Origin: a virus
DNA length: 29,049 nucleotides
Strand: one strand, 5' to 3'
Virus record (IMG/VR): IMGVR_UViG_3300032086_000940
Coordinates: 1 to 29,049 of that record
A program made the position numbers and the translations under genes. This document shows, one piece after another, positions 1 through 17,210 of this stretch; the stretch's first letter is position 1; every line of letters begins with the position of its first letter. Under the pieces are notes generated by a model, which searched no databases, had not been told where the DNA came from, and was given only the letters and a program-made list of their open reading frames with translations.

Positions 1-402
1 AATCTCAACACCATTAACAAACATGCGAACAGTATTTGCTGAACCTTTATAGGAACAGATGATGTGATACCAACCTATATCTCTAAAAATCATGTCGCTG
101 GTAAATGAAGCAGGGTTGGAATATGCTACTAATTTATTATTGTTATCAATTCTAATTGATGCATAATTACCCGTTCTTTCTGCTGACCAAAGATATTGTC
201 CAGCGGGTGAAATTGAAAAATCTAGTATTTGCACCCACGTTGCAAATGTAAAACAAGTTGGATCAGATTGCGCCGAGAATGCTGGACTATCCATTCTAGA
301 ATCAGTACCATTGAACCAAACTGAATTACCAATCAGCGTTGGATCAAATGATGCTGGACCTGTAACAAGATTACTACCGATTAAAGGGTTAATCAGAGAC
401 AT
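1..402 (-). CDS. LamG/concanavalin A-like lectin-fold protein, N-terminal part (likely receptor-binding tail protein)
   Basis: An open frame starts with ATG at 402 and stays open for 134 codons to the window edge, so the gene is partial. It begins MSLINPLIGSNLVTGPASFD and contains features typical of LamG/concanavalin A-like domains: a strand with FATWVQI (about residues 53-59), a RDIGWYHIICSY strand near residue 110, and MFVNGVEI at the edge. In the LamG family the W-Y-H and Y/F-V-N-G-V strands form the jelly-roll core that binds carbohydrates or surface proteins. The ATG overlaps the tail-fibre stop (TAATG), so the two are probably translationally coupled. Position directly after a T7-like fibre suggests a receptor-binding or fibre-tip protein; that role is inferred. 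The stretch is about 37% GC by hand count, far below the rest of the window, which suggests recent acquisition of this module. Confidence 0.8.
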   Translation of the reverse strand, partial: MSLINPLIGSNLVTGPASFDPTLIGNSVWFNGTDSRMDSPAFSAQSDPTCFTFATWVQILDFSISPAGQYLWSAERTGNYASIRIDNNNKLVAYSNPASFTSDMIFRDIGWYHIICSYKGSANTVRMFVNGVEI

Positions 403-1919
403 TAAGCGATTTCCAGAATCTCTAAAACTTGGGTGCCGTCAATGACGGTGCTTCTCATCAAGTGTTTAGCACTTGCAGCGTTGTTATAAGTACCGCTGAC
501 TTTGTCGTATCCCGAAGTGGTAATCGTGTAGCCGCCGGTCCCGTCATTCGTCGTCACCAAAGCGATCACCGAGTTCGCGGTCTGAGGCGCAAGCGTGAAG
601 CTGCCGTTGATTGTCAGCGTTTTGAGGTTTTCTTTAACTGACGAAATCTCTAGGGTTTGAGTCCCGGTTCCGCTGTTTCCTATCGCCTCAAAATCGGAAC
701 TGAAGCCAGCGGTTAGATTGTCGCTTACATCCGCGAACAGCGTGTCGGCGTCGAACGCCTGCACGTCGCTGCCGATTGAAACGCCGAGGTTCGTTCTGGC
801 GGTCGCGGCATTGTTTAAGTCGCTCAGGTTGTTCGCGACCTGAAGGACATCCGCCGACACTAACGTCGCGTTTATCCACGCGCTGCCGTTATAGACCTTC
901 ATTACGTTCAATGCGGTGTTAAAGTAGAGATCGCCCGCTTGAAGTGCTGAGGTGTCCGCCCGCTGTGTCGGGTCGGACGCCGACGGACCCACATACACGT
1001 CGGCGAAGTTGGTAATGTCGGTGACGTTGGTGGCCACCGTAGTAACGTCCGCGCTGATCCCGGCGACCGTGCCGATGTCGGCACCGTCAGCGGCCACCGT
1101 TGTCACGTCTGAGCTGATCCCGGCGACGGTCGTCACGTTCGCGCTGATCCCGGCGACGGTCGTCACGTTCGCTGCTATGCCGGATACGGTGTCAATATTG
1201 GCCTGATCCCCGGTCGTCGGGGTTGTGCGCTTCCACGTCGTCGTGCCCAGGTCGTAGACCTTCATCACGTTTAGCGTCGTGTCGAAGTATAGAGCGCCGT
1301 CCTGTAGCGCATTGCCGTCGTTGTCGAGTGTCGGGTCAGACGCCTTGGCCCCGAGGTACAGGTCCGTGAACTCGTCGAGCGCCGCCTGTGCGGCTTCGGC
1401 GTAAGATTGAGCGGATGTGATCTGGTCTGCGGTGGGACCGTTCTCGAAGCCATCTGCTGTAGGGTTGACCCTTAGCGCGGCCCCTGCGGTCAGGGTCAGA
1501 GGCAGCTCTACGTTTGCCAAAGACGACGAAACGGGGAAGCGGGGGATACGGGCGAACAGCTCGGCTTGGTCTTGTACCTGTTGCGTCAGCTTATCGTATG
1601 CGGTCTCCAGAACCTCCGGCTGCACGCCTCCACGGTTAACCAGATCAACCTCTTGGGTACGTGGCACCGCTCGGCTAAGCGTCAGGGTTTCCCCGGAGGC
1701 CGGCGGTGTAACCATAGTAACCGTGCCTCCGCCGGCATCGCCGACACCCGACACCGTATACTGCGTAACGATAGTCTGGACGGTTTCTACGTTGGCTGCG
1801 TTCTTTAGGGTGACGACCAGGTGGCTCGCGTCGATCAGCTTAAAATCATAAGCAAACTCTGTGGTGGATCCGTTCCCGTTGTACGGGCCCGTCCGTGCAT
1901 CCTGGTTTGATATTGTCAT
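402..1919 (-). CDS. Tail fibre protein, T7-like N-terminus, with decapeptide repeats
   Basis: 505 residues. The N-terminal 1-150 resembles the T7-type fibre attachment domain: an NGSTTEFAYDFKL segment, TQYTVSG, then a P-x-SGETLTLSR strand and a helix TAYDKLTQQVQDQAELFARIPRFP. This part normally docks the fibre on the adaptor/nozzle of short-tailed phages. Residues 187-231 and 308-350 are two copies of a module with ASDPT and ALYF/DLYF-x-T-LNVMKVY. Between them (242-301) lie six decapeptides of the VTTVAGISAN type, expected to form a trimeric rod. The C-terminal 395-505 is a beta-rich segment with NLTAGFSSDFEAIG. ATG at 1919 has GGAG 8 bases upstream. The gene follows the giant ejection protein after a 52-base gap and overlaps the LamG gene by one base. 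It is probably the adsorption fibre, with specificity carried by its C-terminus and the next gene. Confidence 0.88.
   Translation of the reverse strand: MTISNQDARTGPYNGNGSTTEFAYDFKLIDASHLVVTLKNAANVETVQTIVTQYTVSGVGDAGGGTVTMVTPPASGETLTLSRAVPRTQEVDLVNRGGVQPEVLETAYDKLTQQVQDQAELFARIPRFPVSSSLANVELPLTLTAGAALRVNPTADGFENGPTADQITSAQSYAEAAQAALDEFTDLYLGAKASDPTLDNDGNALQDGALYFDTTLNVMKVYDLGTTTWKRTTPTTGDQANIDTVSGIAANVTTVAGISANVTTVAGISSDVTTVAADGADIGTVAGISADVTTVATNVTDITNFADVYVGPSASDPTQRADTSALQAGDLYFNTALNVMKVYNGSAWINATLVSADVLQVANNLSDLNNAATARTNLGVSIGSDVQAFDADTLFADVSDNLTAGFSSDFEAIGNSGTGTQTLEISSVKENLKTLTINGSFTLAPQTANSVIALVTTNDGTGGYTITTSGYDKVSGTYNNAASAKHLMRSTVIDGTQVLEILEIA
1017..1196 (-). repeat. Tandem 30-bp (10-residue) repeats in the tail fibre
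   Basis: Six decapeptides in a row in the fibre (residues 242-301) follow the pattern [I/V]xTVxGI(S/A)A(N/D). At DNA level the copies at 1113-1140 and 1143-1170 are identical over 28 bases, while the others have diverged. Such repeats make triple-stranded fibrous shafts and can expand or contract by recombination. Confidence 0.8.
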
Positions 1920-1971: not shown

Positions 1972-4900
1972 CTAGTTACGCTTCGGGCCAGTAACCAGCA
2001 GACGCCACCAGCTCTCGAACTCGTCAAACTCGAAGGTGTCTCCGTCGTCCATCAAAACCGACGTTGCTCGCGCCCCGGCGCGTGCCCCGGGAATATGGAG
2101 CATATACCCAGTCGACATAATCAATGACTTGACTAGAGGCGCGTCAACTTCGTTCTGGCCCAGTTGTTTAGACAGATTAGCAAGCTCCTTTATCGGGTTG
2201 CCTGCGGGGGTCGGCTGGTAATTAAAACCAGTTGTGGCTGCGTTGACTGCATCCCGCAAGAAGACCACTCCCCCGGTTGCTTGCCGCAGCAAGGTGCCGG
2301 CAATTTTCTGGTATATCTCGTCGTCGTCGTCTCCCCCAAACAGGTCGTTGAACAGTGCGTCTACTAACAAAGACGGTACGACGGTTAGCCATATTTGAGC
2401 CTTGGCGAACTTGAGCGCTTGTGCCGGGTTCCTGAAACTTGTCTGCTTCCAGAGGTCGGTCTGCATGTTCTGGTACGCGCCAAAGTACGAATAGAACATG
2501 GTGAACATCTTCTTCCAAACAGCCCCCTGCTGGATGTCCGCCATGTTCCTCGGCAGCCCGGAACCTTGCGTCCGCGCAACCATGTTGTCGGCGTAATCCA
2601 CCGCGTTGTCGTGGTTCATACCCTCGTCCTTGGCTTTATCATAAGCCCCTATCCAAGTCGGTATAGAAACAGCCATGTCGAGCTTCTGGATCCCCCAGAA
2701 GCTAGCGGTTACAAGATCATTCTTTAGACTGTCTGTGCCGAGCCACCGGTTTGCCTCGCGCACTTCCCGGTTAAATGTAGCCGACCGGTTCCGCATAAAG
2801 GCGCTGGCTTCCATAACCTCTTGAGCCGCGAGGCCGCGCTGGGTTGCAAATTTTAGCATACCTTTTGCGGCATATTTTTCGCCTATTAGAGCTATGCTGC
2901 TGGTGTACCCGAAAGGCTGCATCAACACGGTACGCACACTGAGGCCCATCTCAGCTATAGAACTACCCGTTCTCAGATATTGGGATATCTTTTCAACCGT
3001 AGTTGTCGGGGGCTTCGACGCAGCGACGGTATGCTCAAGCCAGTTGTTGAACATCCCGTAGAACTCGCTCCCCTTGGCGTCTGTAACAGCCTCAGAGAAC
3101 GGCTTGCTGCGGATAATTCTGGAGGTGTCAGCAACAGCCTCACGCATTTCGATATCGCGGATAACCCCGTCAACGTGTTCAAACAGGACGCGCAAATCGA
3201 GCCAGACAGGTTTATCACCGAAACCTTTGCGCTCTATGGTGCTGCCGTGCTTCGTCGATGTCTTAACTCGGCCCCCGGCCGAGAAGTGCTTTAGGCTGTT
3301 CGAGGCGTCGTAATCCTCCTTGCCCCGTGCGCTGCGGTTAGGATCAGCGACCAGAGGATAATAGCCTCCTTTGATTACTCTGCCGGATGGGAGGGTGAAC
3401 GGGGACGGCGAGACCTTGGCAGGAGACACACCTGTAGTACGTTTTTCGAGTGCGGACAGATCCTCCCAGTAGGTGTCTATGTAGCCCCATATGCTCTCCA
3501 CAACGTCCCAGTCACGGTCGGTCAGGGTGGCCAGAACAGCGTCGATCTGCGCGTCTGTGTACTCCTCCTTTAGAGCGGACACGTTCCCCGGGTTCCCCAT
3601 ATTTAGAGCAAACGCCAAGCGGGCGTTCAGGGACAGGCTGTCGTTAATCTCAGGGATACGCTTTTTCCTGAGGAAGGACAGCCGCTCTTTTCTGGTATAC
3701 GCGGACAGGATATCGTTGATGGCCTTGGCGGCCTTCATACTCCGGTCAATGTATGCGTCGTCGGCTTGCTTTATGCGCTGGAACACCTCGGTGTAAACAG
3801 GGCCGCCGGTCTCGTATCCATCCAGCTCCTCAGACAAGCTGAGGATTGTTCTGTGCTCGGCAAACGCCAGCCTGACGAACCCTGTAAACTTGTCCCACTT
3901 GCCCGCCTCGCGTTTGCGCGGAACTGTCTTTGTCGCGTTGGCGTCGATGCTGTAGCCCATGTTGCGGACCATCTGGTCGAACTGCGCAGTTTCAGCGTCG
4001 GAGTACCGACGGCCCTGGGTTACAAGGCTGCGGGCCGTGTCATGCATACCCTCCAGCTCAACGAACGTGAAGTCCCGCACATTTTGCTTTGTCAGAGCGC
4101 GATCTAGCTCAGGGGATATGTGAAAAGACGCACCGAACTTTTCAGACTGCTGGTCCGCCCACCTCTGCAGAGTTTCGGAAGACAGCGTGGCAAAGCGCCT
4201 CGAGCTCATCTTACCGCTAAAGTTTATGTCCCCCAGGAGGGCTTTGACCTGATCGATATATTCCGGGTGGACTTTCCGTGGGTCGAATTTGCGCCGGCTG
4301 TAGTCAGCCATGCGCGCAATCATCTTGTCCGACTTGGCTCTAAGATCCCGGGCCTGCCTGTACATGTGGAAGTTCAAGAGCTGCTGTGTCTTGAACCTCA
4401 GGGCTGCGTCGATATCGCCGGCAATAACAGCCTCGGCCGCTTTCATGGCAAACCGGCGCTCGGCGTTTAAGTACTTAGTCGGGGAACCGAGCTGCGCGAT
4501 AGTCTTTTCGCGCATAGTGTTTTCTGCTGCTGTCCGGGCAGCTCGATTGCTGACTTGATTAGTGCGCCCCGCTTTCCGGCTCAGCAGTCTCAGCTCATCC
4601 AGTATGATCTGGGCCTGCCGACGGGAGTGGACTTTACTCAAGGCCTCCTCGTGCATCTGGCCAGCGTCCATAAGGTCGCCGTGCTGCTGCAGCATATATT
4701 CTCTGGCCTGCCTGTCGGCGAATTGCCTGGCGGTCAAAAACTTACCGTCCTCGGACTTCGGTAGCTCAGATAGTTCGCGCAGTAACTGGTCAGCAGAAGG
4801 GTATCCAAGATCTTGAGCAGCACGCTCCGGGTTTACCCCATCCCTCGCGAACAGTTGATTTCCGCCAGGGAGGTCGTACCCGTACTCAGCGGCCATCTTC

Positions 4901-7900
4901 TTATTCAGCTTTAGGCGTGCGGGATAAACCTCCGGGAGCGGATCTCCGTTGGGGAGAGCGCTCTGCTGAATTATTGACCGAGCACGCCAGACCGGGTCTT
5001 CATTTAAGGCGTCAAGGATACGCTTGCTCTCGCGGGACAGCTCTTCGTTCCACCACTTAGTGCGCTCTCTGCGGATCTCCGCGAGGGCGGATTGTGTCAA
5101 CTCGTCCTGCTGCGCCTCTCTAGCGGCTTCGTAGTCTGCCTTGTATTGGGTAAACTCCGCCTCAGTCATACCGGCGGCTTCGGCATCCTTGAACATAGGA
5201 GCCATACGCATCTCGTCCCGGACTACAGCGATCTGCTCGTCGGAAGCCAGCAGGCGGTCCATTACGTCGGAGATGTCTTTATTCAGTGCTGCTCTGGGCA
5301 GCGAACCAGTCCTGCTGATGCGGCGATATAGCGTAGTCAGCCACGCAGTAAATTTAGCGAACGCAGACCTGAGTTCCTCGGAAGGGGCTTTACCTTCCCG
5401 GAGGTAGGCTTCGTAAGTCTCCGCCCACCTCTCGTGCTGCTCGCGCCCTATCTCGGCACGCGATCCCACGCCGAGCCATTTGAGCACGGTGGAAAAATCG
5501 TCCTTAATCTGCTGCGGGGCGTCGGCTCCTTCGGCGAACGCGCCCAGCATCTCAAGGTATAGGTGTCCGCTTTCGTGCAGAAAAGTGGATAGGTTCTCCG
5601 CGTCATAGAGGCGGATGATTATGCCTTCGGTGGACCCTATATCAATAGACCCTCGGGCGGTTACGCCTTCTTGCTGCTGGGAGAGGGCTGCCGCTGCGGT
5701 GGAGGTCACTTCGGTCGGTGTGAATTTGGCTACCGTAAGGCCCTGCATGGCGTTGTTGAAGTAGCCTTCGTACCCAGCATCTGAGATAGCGTTTTCGTAA
5801 AGGGTGTTTAGTTTCCCCAAATCATAGAGATGATCTCCATTCGGACGCCGGTGTGTAATAGCCTGATCTTGGACCGTTAACATAAGACCGTCCGGGTCTT
5901 GCTGGTAATCGTAGAGACTGTCTGCGGGAACTTGGGCCTCATAGGATGGCGTACCCGCAGGAAACTCGGAAACGTATCCGCCCTCTTTACCCACCGATAC
6001 GCCGAAGTAGGTACGGTCCACCCAACCCTCGACACTTTTACGAGCCCCCTCATCACCCGCCATCCCGGTACCGTGATAGCTCGGGTCAAGTTGAGTGAGG
6101 CCTTCTGTTTCACTGAAATGCGTCAGAGTAACAGTGCCGTCCTCGTTGACAGGCAAACCATACAGACCTGAGGTTCCTTCGCTCGATACCCACGACGGAA
6201 GCAGGGCCATCTTCTGCTCGGCAAACACCGTGTCCTCAAGACTAGCGGTACGGTTCTGCTCCCCGTATGGGCCGTAGTTCAGCCAGGAGTTCTGTCCGCG
6301 TGTCTCGGTGGTGATCGCCTTAACCGCGTCTCCTGTAAACAGCCGAACATGAGCCTGCCATGCGTTTTCTTCCCCGCGTGCGCGGAAGCCGGCTCCTTCG
6401 AGGCCATGGCCGAAAGCATCGTGAACAGCGCGGAACAGGTCATTAGCAAGAACCTTAATGTTGTTTCCGCTCTGGTCTTTCCATGTAAGACCCGTGTCTT
6501 CCAGCATCATATGCCCGCTGGGGTCGAACGTCTCGCCCGTGCCGTAGCCGGCCAGCGTCGAGTAGACAGCCATAGTCTTGTTATCCCGCAGATCACGCAT
6601 AGCGTTCCACGGGTTCCCATCGTAGGGGTCGCTGTCGTTGTCGAAGAAGGTGAATGTATACCCAGCGTCAATAAGGGCGTCGTACTGGGCTCTGGTCTGG
6701 GTAATCAGGGCCCGGTAAGCGCGACGGACGTCAGGGTTTGTGGGCTCGTGCTTAGCGTCCTCGTAGGCTTGGGCAATGCGCTCAGACCGGCTGGGCGTGA
6801 TGGGCACATAAACCGGCTGACGGGTGTAGCGAATACCCGCCTTTTCTGCGTAAGCCTCGGCTACAGAGACCAGCTCAGGTATAGGCCCAAACTGCTCTCC
6901 GTTTAGCTTCGGGGCACCTGGAAGCGGTTGTAACGGCGCTGCTGATACGCCCTCTTGTCCTGCTCCAAGCTCGCCTCTTCCGACGGCTCCGGCTCGAATA
7001 TCTCTGCCGGGTCTTTCGCCTTCGGTGGCGACATATCTTGCGGGGCTTGCTGTCGGGCTCTTGCCAGCATCTCCGACCGCATCTTGTTGATAGCTGACTG
7101 GAGTTCTGAGGGCATCTTCTAATCCTCTCGATTTAAGTGCGGTTTCTGCAGCACCAGAGAAGTTCTGGCTAACAGCTTTAACGCCGTGGCTTCTGTAGAG
7201 ACGCTGTTCGAAGTACCACAACGCCGCCTGCATGGCGCTGGGGTCAATACCTGCCTGCTCGGCGGCGTCACGAATAAGGCGTTTAATGTGGTTTCGCTCT
7301 TTAGCTCCGCGAACGTCACCAACAAGATCCCCGTCAGGGGTGTCAAGCAAACGACCTACGTACCGGTTGTAACTACGGGCCGCCCAAAGATCAACAGTCA
7401 CAGCGTTCTGGTCGATGCCAACGCTGTTCTGCATAAAGTCGCCGACCTTTGGCCCGAACATGTAAATCCCAAGGGTGGATGACCTTAGATTTAGTTCGCT
7501 GGGGGTATACTGACCTAGACGCGGCTTTTCCACGAACAGACCGCTGTCCCGCCGAATCTCTGCCATCTCCCTTCCGGTGTGCTCTTCTTGCACCCAGCGC
7601 ATAGCCCCTTCAAGACCTTTGGTGTCTATCAGGTACTGCAGGAGCTGTAGCCCTTTGGTGTTAACGCCGAACTTAGCCCCACTGGGCTTGGTAAGATCTA
7701 TACGCCCGGTCTCCTTCCAAGACCGTAAAGCCAGTATGGCGTTTTCCCAGTTAGGCCCCGGCTTTTGTTGCGGGGACAGCAGAGCGGTGGCAGTGAGGAA
7801 AAGATCCCGAAACTGGGGATTAGCCAGCTCTGGGTAGATATACTCCGTCAGGCGGACGGCCTCGGCGATGTCGTCCGTGTACCAGCTATCCCCGCTGTCA

Positions 7901-10668
7901 GGCTGGCGGGACTGCTCGGCATAGTCGGCCAGCAGGCTGTCTAACATAATAGCGTAATCAGCCGGATCTTCTGGGTCCAGAGCGCGGCCGTAAGCGGCCA
8001 TGTGTCGGTCGGTAAAAGCCTTGCCAATATCACGGTTAAGCACACGGCCGCCAGGGCCTGTTCCAACAATAGTAAGAGGCTGTTCTTGCAGCGGCGCTGC
8101 TGATTGGAACAGAAACGTGCCGGCGTCACCGAACTGGGCGTTCTTGGCGAGTACCAGCGGGCCAACCTGTATCACCTCGTCTGCAGACAGAATGGGCTGC
8201 TGGGTCTTCCGGTCGTAGAAGAACGTATGACGCCGGGGGTCATATCCAACCTGCGTCCACGCCGGGTCATTCAACGCGGCGTCGGCGGCGGCCTTCAGCT
8301 CGGCTGGGTCAACGCTTTCCAGCGTGCCGTTGATCTGGGCAAACGGTGCCTTTCCTTTTTCTCCCCGCCCCACCTTACCGGCGGCGGTCTCAGCGGCATC
8401 GCCCGGTTCAGTAAACGTAGCGTTGGTGATGCGGGCAGCGGCCTCGTGTGCTACGGGCTTACCCTGCGGGTTGTGGATCGTCGGAACCCAGACACCCTTC
8501 TGCGTGTACGCCGGGATGTCGAGCCGCAGCCCAACGCCCTGACCCACGAACTCACCACCCTTCCCGAGGCGGCCAACTTTGTTGCTGGCGAGAGCACCCC
8601 GCATCTCGGCGTCTGTAGCGGGCTCAGGGACGCTCTCGTAGGGCAAGACAGGTTTATACTGGTCAACTACAGCCTGATACGCTTCCTGCGTTATACGGCC
8701 CTCTGAGCGGTCTCTGGCGGCCTGTTCCAGCTCAGGGATGCGGGGATCAGCAAAACCCTGCTGCGCCTGCTCCAGCGTAGTCGCTGAGGGTTTAAGGCCA
8801 GCACCGGTTACGCGCTCGATGCGTGGAAGGAAGCGGCGCTGTATCGTCTCTAACGGAACCCCAGTCCTGCGAGCCATCGTGGAGAACACCGCCGCCATCT
8901 GCTGAGCTGCTGCTCTGGCCGCCGCAGGGTCACCGCTAAGCGCGCCGCCAGTCTCCATGAGGCGGCCCTCGATCTCCTGAACCAGTGCATCTGCGGCTGG
9001 CAGGTCGCCCATAGTCTGCTCGACTTCTTTGATGAACTCCTCGCGAGTAGCCATTTCGGTGAGGTCGGCAATTTCCTGAGCTTCGCTCGCGCTGACTTCG
9101 TTGACATCGAAGGAGATATGTTCTGCCAGCTTGTCGATGGTCTCCTTGGGTAAAGACCAGAAGTCTTCCGCTCTAAGGTCAGCCCCGGAACCTGTGGCGC
9201 TCCCGTCCATCAGGTTATCGGGCAGACGGAACAAGTCGGCCTGCTGAGGGGGGAGGCTTTCTACTTCCTGTAAAAGTATGTTGATGCCCTCGTCGGAGAG
9301 GCGGACGCGATCTACGCCATACTCCTCCATCAGGCCAGCCTGATACTCGGCCCAAGCCTCGGGGTCGCGCTCACGCAGATTGCTGTTCAGCCCATTAAGC
9401 TCCCGGAGCTGGTCTGCCCGTCTGCGAGTAACACGCGCCTTCACCGTGGCCTCTACGCTGGCCGTCACACCCCGAACAGACCCGCCTAACCCAGAACCCG
9501 CGACCATGCCGCCTATAGCTTCGTCGACCGCATCAGCTATGTTGAACGGCTTCTTGGTACCAATGGTCTCGCCGCCCTGCTCAATAATCCCCTGAGCGAA
9601 CTCAGTAACACCCTCCTTTACAGCGGCTTTACCCGACGCCTTAGCAACCCCTTTGGCACTTACTTCTTTGAGCGCATCGTCCAGCCCCAGCATCCCCCGA
9701 GCGCCAAGGCGTTCTAGGAAGGCGGACGCCGTAGCCGCAGGCAGAGCATTGATAAAATCACCAAAGGTGGCCTCTGTGCGGCCGTCGTTTTTAGCCCTCT
9801 GTGCGGCTATTTGCTCAGTCCGAGAGGCGGCATAGACGGGCAGGCTAACAATGGCCATCGCCATATCCGGGATGGATATGATCCCTTGCTCAACAATAAA
9901 CGGGAGGACTTTTGTAAGGGCGTCGTCTTTAACATCATCCCAAGAAGTCAGCTTCTCCTCTACGGCTTTAGTAACACCTGCCTTCTCTTTAGCCTTTAGG
10001 GGATCAGCGGCGTAACTTGACGTTTTAGGGGCCGCAGCGTCCCGTAGGCCGAGTGCCTCAGAAATAACATCTCCGACATCCATAATTGCGGTGGCTAGAC
10101 CGGGGCGCTGCTCAGCGCGCTTCCTGTACTCCTCCGCCGCCTCGTCACCGAACAATAGTCCCCTGATATTCTCAGACACATAATCTTGAGGAGCGCTAAG
10201 CCCTTTCGTCACGCGATCCACAACTCGGTTGAAGCCAAAAGTAAAAGCGAGCACCCGACCGTAGGTTGCCTTGCCGATAGCCTCAGACCTGGTAAGGCTA
10301 TCGGCATCATCGTGTGCCATCTTCGCGTTCTCAGGGACCCCAAACCATTTTCTGGCGTAAGGGCTGTCCTTGAGTGAATTCATAAGATCCTGAGCTTTTA
10401 AGGCATTCTGTAAAGCTCCGGTGTCTTGCTCAACAACGGACAGGGGCAGTCCGGTCTTGCGGGAAGCGTCCAGCTTCTGCTTAAACTGATCCGGGTTAAC
10501 AGTGACAGCATCCCGGGTCACTGCCCTTTCCCGGACAGGATCAGTGGACAATCCGTTGAGGTTGACAAAAGCCATAGGCTGCAGAGGCGGCTTAAAAATG
10601 TCGGCCCGCTTTTCCTCTAGGTCGTCAGCGGCTGGTCGTAATCCCGTGAAATCTTTAAACTCCACCAC
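1972..10668 (-). CDS. Giant polyvalent internal virion/ejection protein (metallopeptidase, ART-like and other domains)
   Basis: 2898 residues, in the position of T7 gp16 after gp14- and gp15-like genes, so probably packaged in the head and injected with the DNA (inference). Visible parts: hydrophobic helices near 252-280 and a Gly-rich one near 380-398; a segment with WTQVGYDPRRHTFFYDR (about 780-860); a conserved region about 863-1175 of a type recurrent in large phage proteins (tentatively DUF7178-like); a domain with HDAFGH (1416-1421) and a following ENAWQAH; an ADP-ribosyltransferase-like region about 1510-1655 (HFSE at 1517, TYFG at 1553); a zincin motif HESGH (1698-1702) with downstream HERWAE; charged helices 1830-1900; and a C-terminal 2260-2840 resembling large polyvalent protein-associated domains (LPD38 type), with a hydrophobic segment 2756-2780 followed by DDDDE. 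Start is GTG immediately after the preceding TAA; a second GTG at 10665 is equally possible and better spaced from GAGG. No lysozyme/transglycosylase motif is apparent. Confidence 0.85.
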   Translation of the reverse strand: MVEFKDFTGLRPAADDLEEKRADIFKPPLQPMAFVNLNGLSTDPVRERAVTRDAVTVNPDQFKQKLDASRKTGLPLSVVEQDTGALQNALKAQDLMNSLKDSPYARKWFGVPENAKMAHDDADSLTRSEAIGKATYGRVLAFTFGFNRVVDRVTKGLSAPQDYVSENIRGLLFGDEAAEEYRKRAEQRPGLATAIMDVGDVISEALGLRDAAAPKTSSYAADPLKAKEKAGVTKAVEEKLTSWDDVKDDALTKVLPFIVEQGIISIPDMAMAIVSLPVYAASRTEQIAAQRAKNDGRTEATFGDFINALPAATASAFLERLGARGMLGLDDALKEVSAKGVAKASGKAAVKEGVTEFAQGIIEQGGETIGTKKPFNIADAVDEAIGGMVAGSGLGGSVRGVTASVEATVKARVTRRRADQLRELNGLNSNLRERDPEAWAEYQAGLMEEYGVDRVRLSDEGINILLQEVESLPPQQADLFRLPDNLMDGSATGSGADLRAEDFWSLPKETIDKLAEHISFDVNEVSASEAQEIADLTEMATREEFIKEVEQTMGDLPAADALVQEIEGRLMETGGALSGDPAAARAAAQQMAAVFSTMARRTGVPLETIQRRFLPRIERVTGAGLKPSATTLEQAQQGFADPRIPELEQAARDRSEGRITQEAYQAVVDQYKPVLPYESVPEPATDAEMRGALASNKVGRLGKGGEFVGQGVGLRLDIPAYTQKGVWVPTIHNPQGKPVAHEAAARITNATFTEPGDAAETAAGKVGRGEKGKAPFAQINGTLESVDPAELKAAADAALNDPAWTQVGYDPRRHTFFYDRKTQQPILSADEVIQVGPLVLAKNAQFGDAGTFLFQSAAPLQEQPLTIVGTGPGGRVLNRDIGKAFTDRHMAAYGRALDPEDPADYAIMLDSLLADYAEQSRQPDSGDSWYTDDIAEAVRLTEYIYPELANPQFRDLFLTATALLSPQQKPGPNWENAILALRSWKETGRIDLTKPSGAKFGVNTKGLQLLQYLIDTKGLEGAMRWVQEEHTGREMAEIRRDSGLFVEKPRLGQYTPSELNLRSSTLGIYMFGPKVGDFMQNSVGIDQNAVTVDLWAARSYNRYVGRLLDTPDGDLVGDVRGAKERNHIKRLIRDAAEQAGIDPSAMQAALWYFEQRLYRSHGVKAVSQNFSGAAETALKSRGLEDALRTPVSYQQDAVGDAGKSPTASPARYVATEGERPGRDIRAGAVGRGELGAGQEGVSAAPLQPLPGAPKLNGEQFGPIPELVSVAEAYAEKAGIRYTRQPVYVPITPSRSERIAQAYEDAKHEPTNPDVRRAYRALITQTRAQYDALIDAGYTFTFFDNDSDPYDGNPWNAMRDLRDNKTMAVYSTLAGYGTGETFDPSGHMMLEDTGLTWKDQSGNNIKVLANDLFRAVHDAFGHGLEGAGFRARGEENAWQAHVRLFTGDAVKAITTETRGQNSWLNYGPYGEQNRTASLEDTVFAEQKMALLPSWVSSEGTSGLYGLPVNEDGTVTLTHFSETEGLTQLDPSYHGTGMAGDEGARKSVEGWVDRTYFGVSVGKEGGYVSEFPAGTPSYEAQVPADSLYDYQQDPDGLMLTVQDQAITHRRPNGDHLYDLGKLNTLYENAISDAGYEGYFNNAMQGLTVAKFTPTEVTSTAAAALSQQQEGVTARGSIDIGSTEGIIIRLYDAENLSTFLHESGHLYLEMLGAFAEGADAPQQIKDDFSTVLKWLGVGSRAEIGREQHERWAETYEAYLREGKAPSEELRSAFAKFTAWLTTLYRRISRTGSLPRAALNKDISDVMDRLLASDEQIAVVRDEMRMAPMFKDAEAAGMTEAEFTQYKADYEAAREAQQDELTQSALAEIRRERTKWWNEELSRESKRILDALNEDPVWRARSIIQQSALPNGDPLPEVYPARLKLNKKMAAEYGYDLPGGNQLFARDGVNPERAAQDLGYPSADQLLRELSELPKSEDGKFLTARQFADRQAREYMLQQHGDLMDAGQMHEEALSKVHSRRQAQIILDELRLLSRKAGRTNQVSNRAARTAAENTMREKTIAQLGSPTKYLNAERRFAMKAAEAVIAGDIDAALRFKTQQLLNFHMYRQARDLRAKSDKMIARMADYSRRKFDPRKVHPEYIDQVKALLGDINFSGKMSSRRFATLSSETLQRWADQQSEKFGASFHISPELDRALTKQNVRDFTFVELEGMHDTARSLVTQGRRYSDAETAQFDQMVRNMGYSIDANATKTVPRKREAGKWDKFTGFVRLAFAEHRTILSLSEELDGYETGGPVYTEVFQRIKQADDAYIDRSMKAAKAINDILSAYTRKERLSFLRKKRIPEINDSLSLNARLAFALNMGNPGNVSALKEEYTDAQIDAVLATLTDRDWDVVESIWGYIDTYWEDLSALEKRTTGVSPAKVSPSPFTLPSGRVIKGGYYPLVADPNRSARGKEDYDASNSLKHFSAGGRVKTSTKHGSTIERKGFGDKPVWLDLRVLFEHVDGVIRDIEMREAVADTSRIIRSKPFSEAVTDAKGSEFYGMFNNWLEHTVAASKPPTTTVEKISQYLRTGSSIAEMGLSVRTVLMQPFGYTSSIALIGEKYAAKGMLKFATQRGLAAQEVMEASAFMRNRSATFNREVREANRWLGTDSLKNDLVTASFWGIQKLDMAVSIPTWIGAYDKAKDEGMNHDNAVDYADNMVARTQGSGLPRNMADIQQGAVWKKMFTMFYSYFGAYQNMQTDLWKQTSFRNPAQALKFAKAQIWLTVVPSLLVDALFNDLFGGDDDDEIYQKIAGTLLRQATGGVVFLRDAVNAATTGFNYQPTPAGNPIKELANLSKQLGQNEVDAPLVKSLIMSTGYMLHIPGARAGARATSVLMDDGDTFEFDEFESWWRLLVTGPKRN

Positions 10669-12624: not shown

Positions 12625-13176
12625 CTACCAGACATCCACAGTCGGGGTAGACCTTCCCCACCACCCGGCATCCTTTCCAGCGGACGCCACCTTACCCGCA
12701 CCGCTTAGTAAAGCGCCGGCGGCAGCGAAGCCTGGGGACTGAGCGGCTGCTTGCATCCCAAACAAACTTGACTGGGCTTGAAAATTACTTCCCTGAATTT
12801 CAGCAGCGCGGGCCTCTTGTTCATAATTGTCGCGCAGCTTCAGTATATCATACTCTCCTGTTTCAGCGATATCCTGGAGGAATAGGGAGGAAGTCGCGTC
12901 TACGTCGTCGTCCACCAAAAGACCACTTGCCGCCAAGCGGGCGGTGGCAGCACCTTTGGTGAGCCTTAGTCTTTCGCGCTGCTCCTCTTCAGCAACCTCT
13001 GCCTGCTGCCGAATTCGCGCGGCATTTTGCTGTGCAATTATAGAGTTGTTCGCGGCAACTTGCTGCTGGAATTTAGCCTGGTTTTTAGCGGCCTGCGCCT
13101 GTTGTTGAGCGCTAGCCACACCTACTGCCGTGCTGGCTACGGCCGCTACAGCGGTGATTGTTGTTGCGGAAGACAT
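12625..13176 (-). CDS. Internal virion protein, T7 gp14-like
   Basis: 183 residues. A small-residue hydrophobic helix at the N-terminus (ITAVAAVASTAVGVASA, about 7-23) is followed by a long Gln/Ala/Glu coiled-coil-like stretch (24-75) and then RLAASGLLVDDDVDATSSLFLQDIAETGEYDILKLRDNYE, a pattern shared by gp14-like ejection proteins. In T7, gp14 is expelled first and makes the outer-membrane channel. The C-terminus is Ala/Gly-rich. ATG at 13176 comes 2 bases after the stop of the cupin-like gene and has AGGTG upstream. An 81-base gap separates it from the gp15-like gene. Confidence comes from composition, length and position before two larger internal proteins. Confidence 0.78.
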   Translation of the reverse strand: MSSATTITAVAAVASTAVGVASAQQQAQAAKNQAKFQQQVAANNSIIAQQNAARIRQQAEVAEEEQRERLRLTKGAATARLAASGLLVDDDVDATSSLFLQDIAETGEYDILKLRDNYEQEARAAEIQGSNFQAQSSLFGMQAAAQSPGFAAAGALLSGAGKVASAGKDAGWWGRSTPTVDVW

Positions 13177-13178
13177 AA

Positions 13179-13640
13179 CTACTCACCTGTTATAGTAATA
13201 AGGTTGCTTCCCTGGTCGGATCGCGAAACAAGGAGATCCACCTCGTCAGTTAACTCTGCCTCCGCCTCGGATACAGTTTTTGCGGATGTACAAAATACCA
13301 TACTTATGTCCGTATCCATATGGGAAACAAAAGCCTGCTTTCTGCCGGCGCTGGCAGGTACTACACCATAACCAATTAACTCAGCGTGCCCATCCCCCAG
13401 GTAAACCGTAACGTGTCCGCTGATAATCAATAGGGTGGGGACCTTCACTAAAGTCCCCGTCAAGATGTGCTGCGCAGGCATGCGAATAGTGCGTGAATAC
13501 ATACCACCGTGAATAACGTGCCTAGTCTCCAACTCAAACTGAGGGCTCTCCCGGAGTACGGCCTCCAGTTTACGCACATTATCCACAGCGTGCTGGCTCA
13601 TAGCAGAGATGCGGGGAGCACTATCTTGTAAGCTGTTCAC
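13179..13640 (-). CDS. Cupin-like phage protein in the tail module
   Basis: 153 residues. The central part (about 35-115) reads as a beta-sandwich: HVIHGGMYSRTIRMPAQHIL, TGTLVKVPTLLIISG, VTVYLGDG and LIGYGVVPASAGRKQAF, followed by VSHMDTDISMVF. This is the small cupin-like family found beside GNAT genes in tail or ejection modules of many short-tailed phages. Cupins often bind a metal through His residues; His42, His44 and the late His are candidates, but a full metal site is not certain. Its biochemical role is unknown. The ATG overlaps the GNAT stop by four bases (ATGA), so the two are coupled. Confidence 0.68.
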   Translation of the reverse strand: MNSLQDSAPRISAMSQHAVDNVRKLEAVLRESPQFELETRHVIHGGMYSRTIRMPAQHILTGTLVKVPTLLIISGHVTVYLGDGHAELIGYGVVPASAGRKQAFVSHMDTDISMVFCTSAKTVSEAEAELTDEVDLLVSRSDQGSNLITITGE

Positions 13641-14083
13641 TGCAGCTCCTTAAAGAAGACGGTATTGCTGGGGGCGTAGCCTACACCCACAGCAACAGAT
13701 TCAAGACGGCTACCTGTGGGAGCGCTCATAAGCATGCCAACAGCGCCGCGCTCTGTTGCTAAGTATTCAGCAGTTTTCAGTAAACGCAGGCCTGCCCCTG
13801 TTTTTCTGTGCTTTGGTGAAACAAAGAAACTCTCACTGCTGGCTATAGGCAGAGTGTATTTTGGGAGAATAGTAATCATCAAAGATAGGAAGCCCAATAG
13901 TTGGTCCCCGTCATAGGCGGCCAATATATTTATTAGACCGCTGCTCTCCATCTCCCGGTATGAAGTCTCACAAAAGTTGGCCGGCAAACCACCGAGAGCG
14001 CACTCCTGCTCGTATTCTCGCAGCATATCAGAAAACGACGGGTGGCTGCACAAGTCATCGAGTGTGACGCACCGGATGTCCAT
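13637..14083 (-). CDS. GNAT-family N-acetyltransferase
   Basis: 148 residues. The GNAT fold is recognisable: N-terminal helices with SFSDMLREYEQEC, a strand ILAAYDGDQLLGFLSLMI, then SESFFVSPKHRKTGAGLRLLKTAEYLA, in which R93-K-T-G-A-G98 is the acetyl-CoA pyrophosphate-binding motif A. It ends with a beta strand VGYAPSNTVFFKEL. GNAT enzymes move acetyl from acetyl-CoA to an amine; the substrate here is unknown. ATG at 14083 is preferred over an upstream in-frame TTG, because it overlaps the nozzle stop as TGATG. It sits between the nozzle and a cupin-like gene, a pairing seen in other short-tailed phages. Confidence 0.88.
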   Translation of the reverse strand: MDIRCVTLDDLCSHPSFSDMLREYEQECALGGLPANFCETSYREMESSGLINILAAYDGDQLLGFLSLMITILPKYTLPIASSESFFVSPKHRKTGAGLRLLKTAEYLATERGAVGMLMSAPTGSRLESVAVGVGYAPSNTVFFKELQ

Positions 14084-16617
14084 CAATCACCTCCAGGAAT
14101 TACTTCTGGGATGACCGCTAGCAAGTTCATAGGCAGGGGATCTCGCTGCTGTACAATTATCTGGCCATCTTTATTCCAGCTAGGAGACATGGTCAGATCC
14201 TTGTCGCCAGTAATCCAGTTCGCGTTCTGACCCCACTGCGCAGGCAAGCCATATTTGATCTCGCGTATATGATCTTTGTCGGGGCCGTACCACCCGCCTA
14301 AAGACCTTTCAAAACGCAGAGTAAGCCTGCTGATCTTTTTGTTTCTACCCTGGACCGTATCTGACACATTCCCGCCATCAATGCGGAGGGTCTGCACCTC
14401 AGCCGTATAGGGCAAACCTACATGAACCCGGCTAGCCTTATTCTGTAGCGTGATAGAACCATTGGAGACGGTAAGGTCGCGCTCAACGTAGCCATTACCT
14501 AAAGCCACGACTGACTGGCCCTCCAGGTGCCACAGTCCTGATATCGAGTTTACCGCTTCTCGAACTTGTCCTCGGCTGTGGTAAACTTTAAAGGACGAGC
14601 CATCGACGTTTGCCCCATTGTTCTGCAGCTCAAAAGTGGTGCTGGTCACGTTGGCCACAGTATACCCAGAACCCTCCAGCTCTGTGTCTAGGACCCACCC
14701 GCGTGTGGTGGTGTTATCCACAACCCGAATACCTGTGATGTCTACCGTGTCGCCGTTGGTTAAATTGTGCGGTGATGCGGTTGTGACGACAACTGGGTTA
14801 GCGTTAGTGAAGCCTGAAATATCCACAGGGTTATCCAGGGTCAGACCGCTATCCACAAAGAAGCTATCTTGAATATCCGTGAAGTCTCGGGTGGACATCC
14901 GCTCAACGTGCTTGAGGGTAGATCCATTAAGGGTGCGCTCCACTATAAAATAGGAGAAGTCGTCGTCCCCCTCCCGGATGGAGGCAACCGATTTAAAGTC
15001 GCCTTGTGTAGTGTGTCGAGCCCAGCCAAAAACATTCTGCTCTCTGGAGTATGTTAGGGATAGGCAGATACCGTCGTCGCGAACGCACCATATAAGATTG
15101 TGCGGGGCTTGAGCAAACGACCAATCCAAAACCGTGTTGTAATCAAATAGGTGTCGGGCGAGGATAGATAGATCATTACCTGTGTAACTATCCGTTTCGT
15201 ACTTGTACCCCAGGTCTCGAACCGATTGTCCCGTCTGCATATAAATTACAATGTCGCCCGCCACGATAGGCGTTAGTATGGTGGAGCCGTAGTAGGACTG
15301 CGGCTTAATCTGAATTCCACTAGGGGTAATAACACCGTCAACGCCTTGGACCAGCCACTCGCCTCCGGACGTTAATATCACCAGATCCGACAGAGATACA
15401 AAGTGGCGGATTGCGTTGACCTGCTGTGAGGCCAGGGTCACTGTAATGGCGTCGTCGTCCTTTTGTGGGCTGGAGAACGACATGTTGCTGATGTTCCCCG
15501 TTTGCGACATAAAGAACTTCTGTGTGGCGTTGTTGGTGTTTCCAAACACCCGACGTTGTTGGTGGTAGCCAACAGTCGACGGGTAGTCGCCTACCGCGTT
15601 AAACGGATTACGAGCCTTGGGGGGCGTGTCTGCGCTGTCCGGGTCTATATTGTCGTCATTAAACGAAGTGCCCTCTGCGCGGCCCACAAAGCCGTACAGG
15701 CCGTTTTTCTCGCGGTATATGTTATAAGTCCCAGCGCCGGCAGCAGCGACCCACGTAACCGTGTTATCCCAAGCGGCGTCTTTACTGGTAGAGCTGCTCC
15801 CGGTGGCCGGTAAACTCTCCTCAAGCGTCTCCTCGTTCACCGCCGTGACAGCGTATGTAAAGGTAGTGCTGCCCCCGGAAGCGCTTACAGATACCCCGGT
15901 AGGGGCTGCCTGGGACGGGGCAAAGGTTATCGTGGATAACGTCCAGGCGTCGTGATCTGTGCGTGTAAGGTCTCTCGGCTCGTAGGTGGGGTGCGTGATA
16001 GTCATCACATCAGCCGACTGCACGTAATCCAAGTCGAAGATATCGGCCGCGATATATGGTGTGGACAGCTCAAATATTTTGTCTGCCGTGCCTCCTGATG
16101 TGTACGCAGAATAGCCCGTGCCGTTAATAGAAGATCCGGCACTGTTGCTCAGGCTAAAGGTAGTGGAGGTTAGTGAAGTGATATTAAAGGTACGGCCGTT
16201 GAGCTGGGTCATACCGGACACGCCAGAGATATAAACGCTATTGTTATTAGACAGGCCGTGTGGTGTCGAAGTCGTTATCACAACGGGGTTAGCGGTTGTT
16301 GCCCCCGTGATAGTCAAGGACACCGAGGTGTCCAACACCTGACCCCCATCCTTAAACACCCTAATATACTGGTCGCCAAACTCTAAGATGTATGTCTGGG
16401 TTGTATTAAACTCAAAAGGTATCAGGCGGGTGACCCCTGTACCTTTTGTCTCAGCAATAAATTTTAAGCCAGACCGATTGGTCAGGCCGCCGTGAACTTG
16501 AGGAAAGAAGTTCTCACATTTATAGACAGAGGTTTTATACTTATCGATGTCGACCCGAGCAGCGATGGCATCGGATACCTCGCCCCCAGACATATTGGGC
16601 TGGATTACTTTTACCAT
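14083..16617 (-). CDS. Tail nozzle protein, T7 gp12/tail tubular protein B-like, with FCCH-type inserts
   Basis: 844 residues. The N-terminus (VIQPNMSGGEVSDAIAARVDIDKYKTSVYKCENFFPQVHGGLTNRSGLKF) is typical of the tubular tail protein B/nozzle family, which extends the portal-adaptor tube and carries fibres. Residues about 100-177 hold a domain with NPVVITTSTPHGLSN and MTQLNGRTFNITSLTSTTFSL, and about 595-680 hold a second one with NPVVVTTASPHNLTNGDTVDITG. Both match the pattern known in phage tail proteins as the ubiquitin-activating-enzyme FCCH domain. A fibronectin-like segment (FTYAVTAVNEETLEES) lies near 250. ATG at 16617 overlaps the adaptor stop (TGATG); no good ribosome-binding site is seen, so expression likely depends on coupling. 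Length is close to T7 gp12 (794) plus the inserts. Confidence 0.9.
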   Translation of the reverse strand: MVKVIQPNMSGGEVSDAIAARVDIDKYKTSVYKCENFFPQVHGGLTNRSGLKFIAETKGTGVTRLIPFEFNTTQTYILEFGDQYIRVFKDGGQVLDTSVSLTITGATTANPVVITTSTPHGLSNNNSVYISGVSGMTQLNGRTFNITSLTSTTFSLSNSAGSSINGTGYSAYTSGGTADKIFELSTPYIAADIFDLDYVQSADVMTITHPTYEPRDLTRTDHDAWTLSTITFAPSQAAPTGVSVSASGGSTTFTYAVTAVNEETLEESLPATGSSSTSKDAAWDNTVTWVAAAGAGTYNIYREKNGLYGFVGRAEGTSFNDDNIDPDSADTPPKARNPFNAVGDYPSTVGYHQQRRVFGNTNNATQKFFMSQTGNISNMSFSSPQKDDDAITVTLASQQVNAIRHFVSLSDLVILTSGGEWLVQGVDGVITPSGIQIKPQSYYGSTILTPIVAGDIVIYMQTGQSVRDLGYKYETDSYTGNDLSILARHLFDYNTVLDWSFAQAPHNLIWCVRDDGICLSLTYSREQNVFGWARHTTQGDFKSVASIREGDDDFSYFIVERTLNGSTLKHVERMSTRDFTDIQDSFFVDSGLTLDNPVDISGFTNANPVVVTTASPHNLTNGDTVDITGIRVVDNTTTRGWVLDTELEGSGYTVANVTSTTFELQNNGANVDGSSFKVYHSRGQVREAVNSISGLWHLEGQSVVALGNGYVERDLTVSNGSITLQNKASRVHVGLPYTAEVQTLRIDGGNVSDTVQGRNKKISRLTLRFERSLGGWYGPDKDHIREIKYGLPAQWGQNANWITGDKDLTMSPSWNKDGQIIVQQRDPLPMNLLAVIPEVIPGGD

Positions 16618-17210
16618 CAGACGCGAGCCCGGATCCATTCGGCGTCCGGTATAGCCTCCTCGACGCCTTCGTTGCTGTCAGTCTCCCAAGCGCTATTCAG
16701 AACAGCCTGCGCTTGTTGATATAGGTCGGCTGCGATAGCCCGTTCACCAATCAGGGGCATGACTAGGCGGGCAGCCAAGACATAGGAGAATGCCATTACG
16801 AACTCCGGGTCATAGTCCGTCGTGTCCTCCACCCGCATGGTATAATAAATTTCAGGGGTCTGGAGATCACACATCAAAACCCGTTTGCTGGAAGCATTAC
16901 GGGCAACCTCGAATTTCACCCTTGGCTGATCTTTCCCCAAGGGGTTCACAATACCCAGGATTCTCAGGCAGTCGGTGGGGTACAAAAACATGTAAGTCCA
17001 GTGACCCGGAACAGTGCCGGAAAGAGCGGCTGGCTTAGTGTACTTTGTAGCAAAGGCCCAGGGGTGCTGGCGAAGCAAGGCATCTCGCGTATCATCAAAT
17101 AGCAGGTTTACCTGCTCAGCCTCTGGAGTAGCCTCGGTGATATCACTTATATCATACCGATCTCCAATGTGCTGTAGGGCTAGCTTTGCGATCTGAACCT
17201 TGCTCGCCAT
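16617..17210 (-). CDS. Head-tail adaptor, T7 gp11/tail tubular protein A-like
   Basis: 197 residues. The signature is at the N-terminus: IAKLALQHIGDRYDISDITEATPEAEQVNLLFDDTRDALLRQHPWAFA, found in the tail tubular protein A family. Twelve copies of this protein bind under the portal and form the adaptor between connector and nozzle. The middle (WTYMFLYPTDCLRIL) and the C-terminal helix (LAARLVMPLIGERAIAADLYQQAQAVLNSA) also fit. Length is essentially that of T7 gp11 (196). It lies just upstream of the nozzle gene, with a one-base stop/start overlap, as in T7-like phages. Confidence 0.92.
   Translation of the reverse strand: MASKVQIAKLALQHIGDRYDISDITEATPEAEQVNLLFDDTRDALLRQHPWAFATKYTKPAALSGTVPGHWTYMFLYPTDCLRILGIVNPLGKDQPRVKFEVARNASSKRVLMCDLQTPEIYYTMRVEDTTDYDPEFVMAFSYVLAARLVMPLIGERAIAADLYQQAQAVLNSAWETDSNEGVEEAIPDAEWIRARV

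Follow-up and report, generated by a model that had tools for sequence, protein, structure and literature searches.

The window analysed here is the whole of a 29,049-base viral fragment (IMG/VR record IMGVR_UViG_3300032086_000940), for which a near-identity DNA search of phage records returned no match. A single gene, P0001 (1972..10668), takes up 30% of it and lies on the minus strand, as do all other window features given coordinates below. Its reading frame is open throughout, starts with GTG, and encodes 2,898 residues. A giant single gene of this length and share of the window had been described in an earlier sequence-only reading, which gave its position and left out its strand. In minus-strand order, the genes encode a Prim-Pol/AAA protein, a GP7-type major capsid protein, a tail-tube protein, a nozzle protein, a GNAT protein, a short tail-fibre protein, a T7 gp14 homologue, P0002, P0001, and a T7-type tail fibre. 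The surroundings of P0001 are thus virion genes by Pfam and PHROG matches (capsid, tail-tube, nozzle, gp14, and fibre). Its immediate neighbours suggest a gp16 position for P0001: the T7 gp14-type internal virion protein (12625..13176; PF24072, T7_gp14, 5.2e-10) is followed by the 624-residue gp15-position gene P0002 (10669..12543), which matches only PHROG families named endolysin, and does so with its N-terminal part. Beyond P0001 is the tail-fibre gene, with its T7-type N-terminal part (402..1919; Pfam and PHROG matches). The nozzle protein (14083-16638) carries FCCH domains, and the GNAT acetyltransferase gene (13637-14086) lies between tail genes; Nostoc phage Nsp-JY18 (L010) has an acetyltransferase at the same place.

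P0001 is a member of the Bbp10-type family, the LPD22/zincin polyvalent proteins found in BPP-1-like podoviruses. Relatives identified by tblastn come from Bordetella phage BPP-1 (Bbp10) and from Caulobacter, Pseudomonas, Vibrio, Xanthomonas, Cobetia, and other podoviruses, and they align mostly with residues 1660-2870, at 24-34% identity. This C-terminal conserved shell (residues 1663-2898, 1975..5682) is delimited by the alignment of relatives and by a match to phrog_9880 (residues 1659-2874, E 4e-277). Within it is a zincin-like metallopeptidase domain (residues 1666-1790, 5299..5673) with HESGH at residues 1698-1702 and a second conserved glutamate at 1746. H1698, E1699, H1702, and E1746 are invariant in an alignment of the C-terminal part of 56 sequences, and the predicted zincin model has two strands and helices, with the second glutamate on the following conserved helix. 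P0001 is not a chance open reading frame, since the C-terminal parts of relatives are 94%, 61%, and 53% identical to its own and the zincin is present in all 79 open reading frames picked by the shell. The N-terminal shell (residues 1-635, 8764..10668), at the end of which DNA-level conservation with the relatives L004 and L005 stops, contains LPD22, a recognised polyvalent-protein domain (PF18834; residues 48-131, 10276..10527; Pfam E 1.2e-14, over the cut-off). LPD22 was found in 57 of 66 scanned relatives and is N-terminal there as in P0001. Residues 277-588 (8905..9840) are weakly similar to a phage virion RNA polymerase family in its N-terminal region (phrog_2206, E 1.3e-4), and residues 734-833 (8170..8469) form a Phage_L5_gp82-like segment (E 0.0013, below the Pfam cut-off). 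Sequence searches against solved structures, run with P0001 and with the shell and HDxFGH profiles, yielded no useful match.

Overall, one chain appears to combine several unrelated enzyme-type domains: a glycosylase fold, an HDxFGH domain, an ART-like part, and the zincin. The sequence-only reading had proposed a polyvalent protein in the gp16 position with a domain set that may be new. The analysis supports this in outline: the set is unusual, and LPD22, the zincin (HESGH at 1698), and HDAFGH (at residue 1416) are all present in a gene that follows P0002 and the T7_gp14 homologue.

Bbp10-type proteins (L006, L008-L012) are annotated in their records as lysin, lysis protein, or crystallin beta/gamma motif-containing protein. 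That P0001 is a lysin, as these annotations of its homologues would imply, is very improbable, given that no lysozyme, peptidoglycan-hydrolase, or crystallin family was found by Pfam in P0001, Bbp10, or the other relatives scanned; for instance, Pfam scans of the BPP-1, Carin1, and ctEw122 homologues gave no lysin or crystallin family. The identity was dropped on these grounds. Limnohabitans phage DC33 (L007, PQ492659.1) is filed under Inoviridae, a taxonomy that looks wrong; its 39-kb record has a podovirus-like gene order and includes a gene for a Bbp10-type protein of ~3,100 residues.

Comparison with close relatives showed that the conserved N-terminal (LPD22) and C-terminal (zincin and long helical region) parts enclose a middle that is exchanged among them as a cassette. 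Three syntenic relatives (L002, L004, and L005) have about 72-94% DNA identity to the P0001 gene on both sides of this middle. Homology ends at residue 635 (versus L004 and L005) or 856 (versus L002) and returns at 1663-1664, directly before the zincin, in L002 and L004, where the contig continues. The cassette junction at residue 1663 (5680..5682) is followed by an ARG.I motif. The C-terminal part of L002 is 94% identical to that of P0001, but its glycosylase domain is only 36% identical. Similarly, other pairs of relatives have shells that are 97-99% identical, yet 67-73% of the middle is unmatched. The length before the shell ranges across the family from about 190 to 3,026 residues, of which the shortest may represent truncated reading frames. 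Among the 66 relatives, the cargo includes ART-PolyVal (19), DUF7178 (8), PBECR5 (7), Zeta toxin (5), RadC (4), MuF-C (3), and GGDEF (2), along with single cases of ddrB-ParB, Pol-beta, and others; BPP-1 carries PBECR1 and Cobetia phage Carin1 carries PBECR5. In L004, the alternative cassette opens with a weak match to GNAT (L004:8573-8860, PF13508, E 0.029), and its cargo is therefore of another type. Such cargo domains have been described in polyvalent proteins, and zincins have been proposed to process them (Iyer et al. 2017, PMC5512222). The kind of protein is thus known, and what is newly seen is the cargo pair described below and a clean view of cassette exchange beside the zincin.

The first member of this pair is a predicted HhH-GPD DNA glycosylase domain at residues 905-1174 (7147..7956), which contains DUF7178 (2.4e-8). 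The idea came initially from an alignment, in which 'GPKVGDF...VTVDLW' resembled the helix-hairpin-helix and catalytic aspartate of EndoIII/Ogg, and was tested afterwards with an AlphaFold2 model of residues 868-1668 (62 sequences, mean pLDDT 82). The best 50 VIA-align matches to this model were essentially all HhH-GPD DNA glycosylases (Z 8.3-12.8), one of the 50 being an unnamed Pyrococcus protein (1xg7). The top match was MjOgg (Z 12.8, rmsd 3.5 A, 190 of 206 residues), and the nearest folds are 8-oxoguanine glycosylases. The predicted catalytic lysine, Lys 1074 in GPK (7447..7449), is present in 34/34 sequences, and the predicted catalytic aspartate, Asp 1093 in VTVDLW (7390..7392), in 33/34. 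The two are 19 residues apart, the same spacing as between Lys249 and Asp268 of human OGG1. Because both are kept, the predicted glycosylase is probably bifunctional. At the sequence level, PF00730 had no Pfam match in P0001, and hhalign of the domain against cellular EndoIII/MutY (HhH-GPD) sequences aligned them in the expected register with a score within the shuffled range. Foldseek E-values for both P0001 models, this one and the C-terminal model below, were above 0.1. No paper naming DUF7178 was found in the open literature searched, and neither glycosylases nor helix-hairpin-helix domains come up in the main text of Iyer et al. 2017 (PMC5512222).

The second member, the HDxFGH domain (residues 1250-1490, 6199..6921), is related to phrog_3170, a family without function, and no family for it was found in Pfam, NCBIfam, or PADLOC. 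Its HDAFGH motif occupies residues 1416-1421 (6406..6423). Across 56 phage and bacterial sequences, H1416, D1417, H1421, E1433, H1440, E1455, and Q1459 are invariant; these residues, including five histidines or glutamates, fit a metal enzyme, which the domain probably is. In the structure comparison of the joint model, where the glycosylase filled the matches listed, no fold was assigned to HDxFGH. A likeness to aromatic amino acid hydroxylases (PF00351) is only a lead: HDxFGH followed by a glutamate 34 residues on resembles their HxxxxH...E metal site, and just the 7-residue motif aligns, with a score of 27.4 against a shuffled maximum of 24.4.

The HDxFGH domain is encoded in at least 571 IMG/VR stretches. 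Among 80 HDxFGH proteins fetched from these, mostly 2,000-4,200 residues long, 36 also contain the glycosylase domain, which comes before HDxFGH in 31 and after it in 5. By comparison, the glycosylase occurs in 8/77 shell proteins without HDxFGH (Fisher p 1e-6, a guide only, given the different selection of the two sets and the relatedness of the sequences). The two domains are also encoded separately in actinophages. In mycobacteriophage ET08 (Bixzunavirus), they are the adjoining genes gp94 and gp95, both of which have an N-terminal EQFEML that, searched as a DNA pattern, occurs nowhere else in the ET08 genome. Likewise, genes 165 (annotated as a glycosylase) and 166 of Gordonia phage Skog adjoin and have a similar N-terminal leader, and in Streptomyces phage Dagobah the glycosylase and HDxFGH genes are about 2.3 kb apart. 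Skog gene 165 (L229:7-2109) additionally has a C-terminal stretch similar to the C-terminal part of phrog_3170, as though one of the adjoining genes had passed sequence to the other. That the glycosylase and HDxFGH domains keep appearing together, in three arrangements, is the best pointer to function obtained here, and the two probably act together. The sequence-only reading, although right in outline, had overlooked the HhH-GPD glycosylase, the fact that it is paired with HDxFGH, and the exchange of the middle.

Standalone small HDxFGH genes are found in Actinobacteria. In 14 Micromonosporaceae loci (L201-L208, L210-L215; HDxFGH region around 3.2-12 kb of each), which are related and may have inherited the association once, the HDxFGH gene adjoins a conserved HTH/N6-adenine methylase gene on the opposite strand. 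The representative methylase from L212 matches PF02384 (2e-30), PADLOC MTase_I (1e-97), and mad2 (3e-20). In about 10 of the 14 loci, a UvrD-type helicase gene and a Cas3-type gene are nearby (one representative gene of each kind was examined), and a CRISPR array with a 61-nt period is present in L212. DUF7178 was absent from the one Micromonosporaceae genome and the six other HDxFGH-bearing bacterial genomes tested. The methylase-HDxFGH pair is a possible undescribed defence pair in Micromonosporaceae. In Enterovibrio and a BD1-7 clade bacterium (L195:4784-6723, L196:4768-7239), the HDxFGH gene comes directly after a gene for a Rossmann NAD-binding domain with AdoHcyase_NAD/TrkA-N matches. 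A further HDxFGH frame (L189:5749-6717) is broken by a stop between 6450 and 6454 and is possibly a decaying copy.

Between HDxFGH and the zincin is an ART-like domain (residues 1508-1661, 5686..6147), a region already noted in the sequence-only reading. The ART-PolyVal histidine and tyrosine of strands 1 and 2 are kept (H1517 in 13/14 sequences, Y1554 in 12/14), but the usual third acidic residue is missing: P0001 has FTP rather than FDP, at a position that is variable in relatives. The best Foldseek match of this part is 6kyf, titled an anti-CRISPR protein (probability 0.96, E 0.23), which we take to be AcrIF11, an ADP-ribosylating (ART) anti-CRISPR. Judged by its residues, this part has probably degenerated or employs a different residue, and its activity is doubtful.

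Structure prediction, which the sequence-only reading had suggested, was run on parts of the protein; in addition to the HhH-GPD fold, it gave a gp16-like region with modest Z scores. The predicted structure of residues 1660-2859 has a mean pLDDT of 82. It matches a PhiM1 ejectosome chain (Z 7.4 over 222 residues) and two T7 core-protein chains (Z 6.5 over 220 residues and Z 5.9, both over about 200-220 residues), values in a range where helical arrangements can coincide. These are the only phage entries among the matches listed, and all fall in one region (residues about 2271-2646, 2731..3858), with the alignment of one T7 chain extending to residue 2715. The comparison is supportive rather than proof of a T7 gp16/PhiM1 ejection-protein fold in part of the predicted C-terminal structure. 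Matches of the same model to transporters were dismissed as unspecific helix matches. 'LFQG'-like words that precede the zincin were not taken as a cleavage site. According to a review of ejection proteins (PMC8954989), T7 gp16-C binds DNA and presumably resides in the host cytoplasm. No virion proteomics for the Bbp10-type family was found in the open literature searched.

We favour, with moderate confidence, the reading that a BPP-1-like podovirus has turned its gp16-type ejection protein, P0001, into a carrier, with DNA-acting cargo delivered early. P0001 would sit in the head core and exit together with gp14 and gp15; by analogy with T7 gp16-C, the C-terminal part of P0001 may reach the host cytoplasm. 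The zincin just after the cassette would cut the chain, either at assembly or post-entry, and free the cargo, namely the predicted HhH-GPD glycosylase and the HDxFGH probable metal enzyme. The most likely targets of this cargo in a newly infected cell would be DNA bases, of host DNA or of defence elements, such that takeover or defence escape could start before any phage gene expression. It is improbable that P0001 is purely a structural or ejection protein whose middle consists of inactive spacers or DNA-binding aids to genome translocation. The gp16-like fold of the C-terminal model and the ART-like domain without a catalytic residue are consistent with that account, and HhH folds can bind DNA without catalysis. 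However, the glycosylase catalytic residues are kept in almost all of 34 diverse sequences, five histidines and glutamates of HDxFGH are invariant in 56, and unrelated phages encode the same two domains in separate genes.

An alternative with more weight, though still unlikely, is that the glycosylase and HDxFGH serve the phage's own genome, repairing or editing oxidised or hypermodified bases on entry, and are not aimed at the host. The resemblance to 8-oxoguanine glycosylases points this way, as does the expectation that the protein would enter alongside the DNA. In contrast, swapping of the cassette with ART, PBECR, and Zeta conflict domains would be unusual for housekeeping repair, and cellular HDxFGH genes adjoin a DNA methylase gene, often near CRISPR genes. 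The carrier reading can be extended tentatively: phages might deliver the glycosylase and HDxFGH as an attack or counter-defence module in exchangeable ejection-protein cassettes, and HDxFGH with the N6-adenine methylase might form a defence system in Micromonosporaceae. This extension is doubtful as a whole. The carrier reading makes two questions directly testable. One is whether the giant ejection proteins of phages bring swappable sets of enzymes into the cell before any genes are expressed; the other is whether a base-excision enzyme is among what phages inject. In the libraries searched, no function is described for the glycosylase/HDxFGH pair, although it turns up repeatedly in unrelated phages, and HDxFGH by itself does so near defence genes in bacterial genomes. 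These comparisons also give a short list of genes that could be assayed, in phages of Mycobacterium smegmatis, Gordonia, and Streptomyces that are in cultivation.

Among known systems, Bbp10 of BPP-1 (phrog_9880) is like P0001 in gene position, LPD22, zincin, and C-terminal shell, with 29% identity over about 1,200 residues; it differs in its length of 2,052 residues and its PBECR1 cargo, and no glycosylase or HDxFGH domain was found in it. The polyvalent proteins of Iyer et al. 2017 (PMC5512222) are similarly large and multidomain, with a zincin, LPD22, and an ART-like part, and are encoded among virion genes, and to these P0001 adds a cargo type, the predicted glycosylase with HDxFGH. The T7 gp16/PhiM1 ejection (core) proteins seem to resemble P0001 in the order of gp14, gp15-position, and gp16-position genes and, with modest Z scores, in predicted fold over about 220 residues, but P0001 is 1,580 residues longer than T7 gp16, adds the zincin and cargo, and has no transglycosylase family that could be found. 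HhH-GPD glycosylases (MjOgg, Ogg1, MutY, and EndoIII) are alike in predicted fold (Z up to 12.8) and in the 19-residue Lys/Asp spacing, whereas the P0001 domain has no PF00730 match, is only 8-13% identical to them, and is located inside an ejection-type protein. Finally, ET08 gp94-gp95 and Skog genes 165-166 have the same two domains in adjoining genes with a common N-terminal leader; unlike P0001, these are separate proteins in larger actinophage genomes, with neither shell nor zincin.
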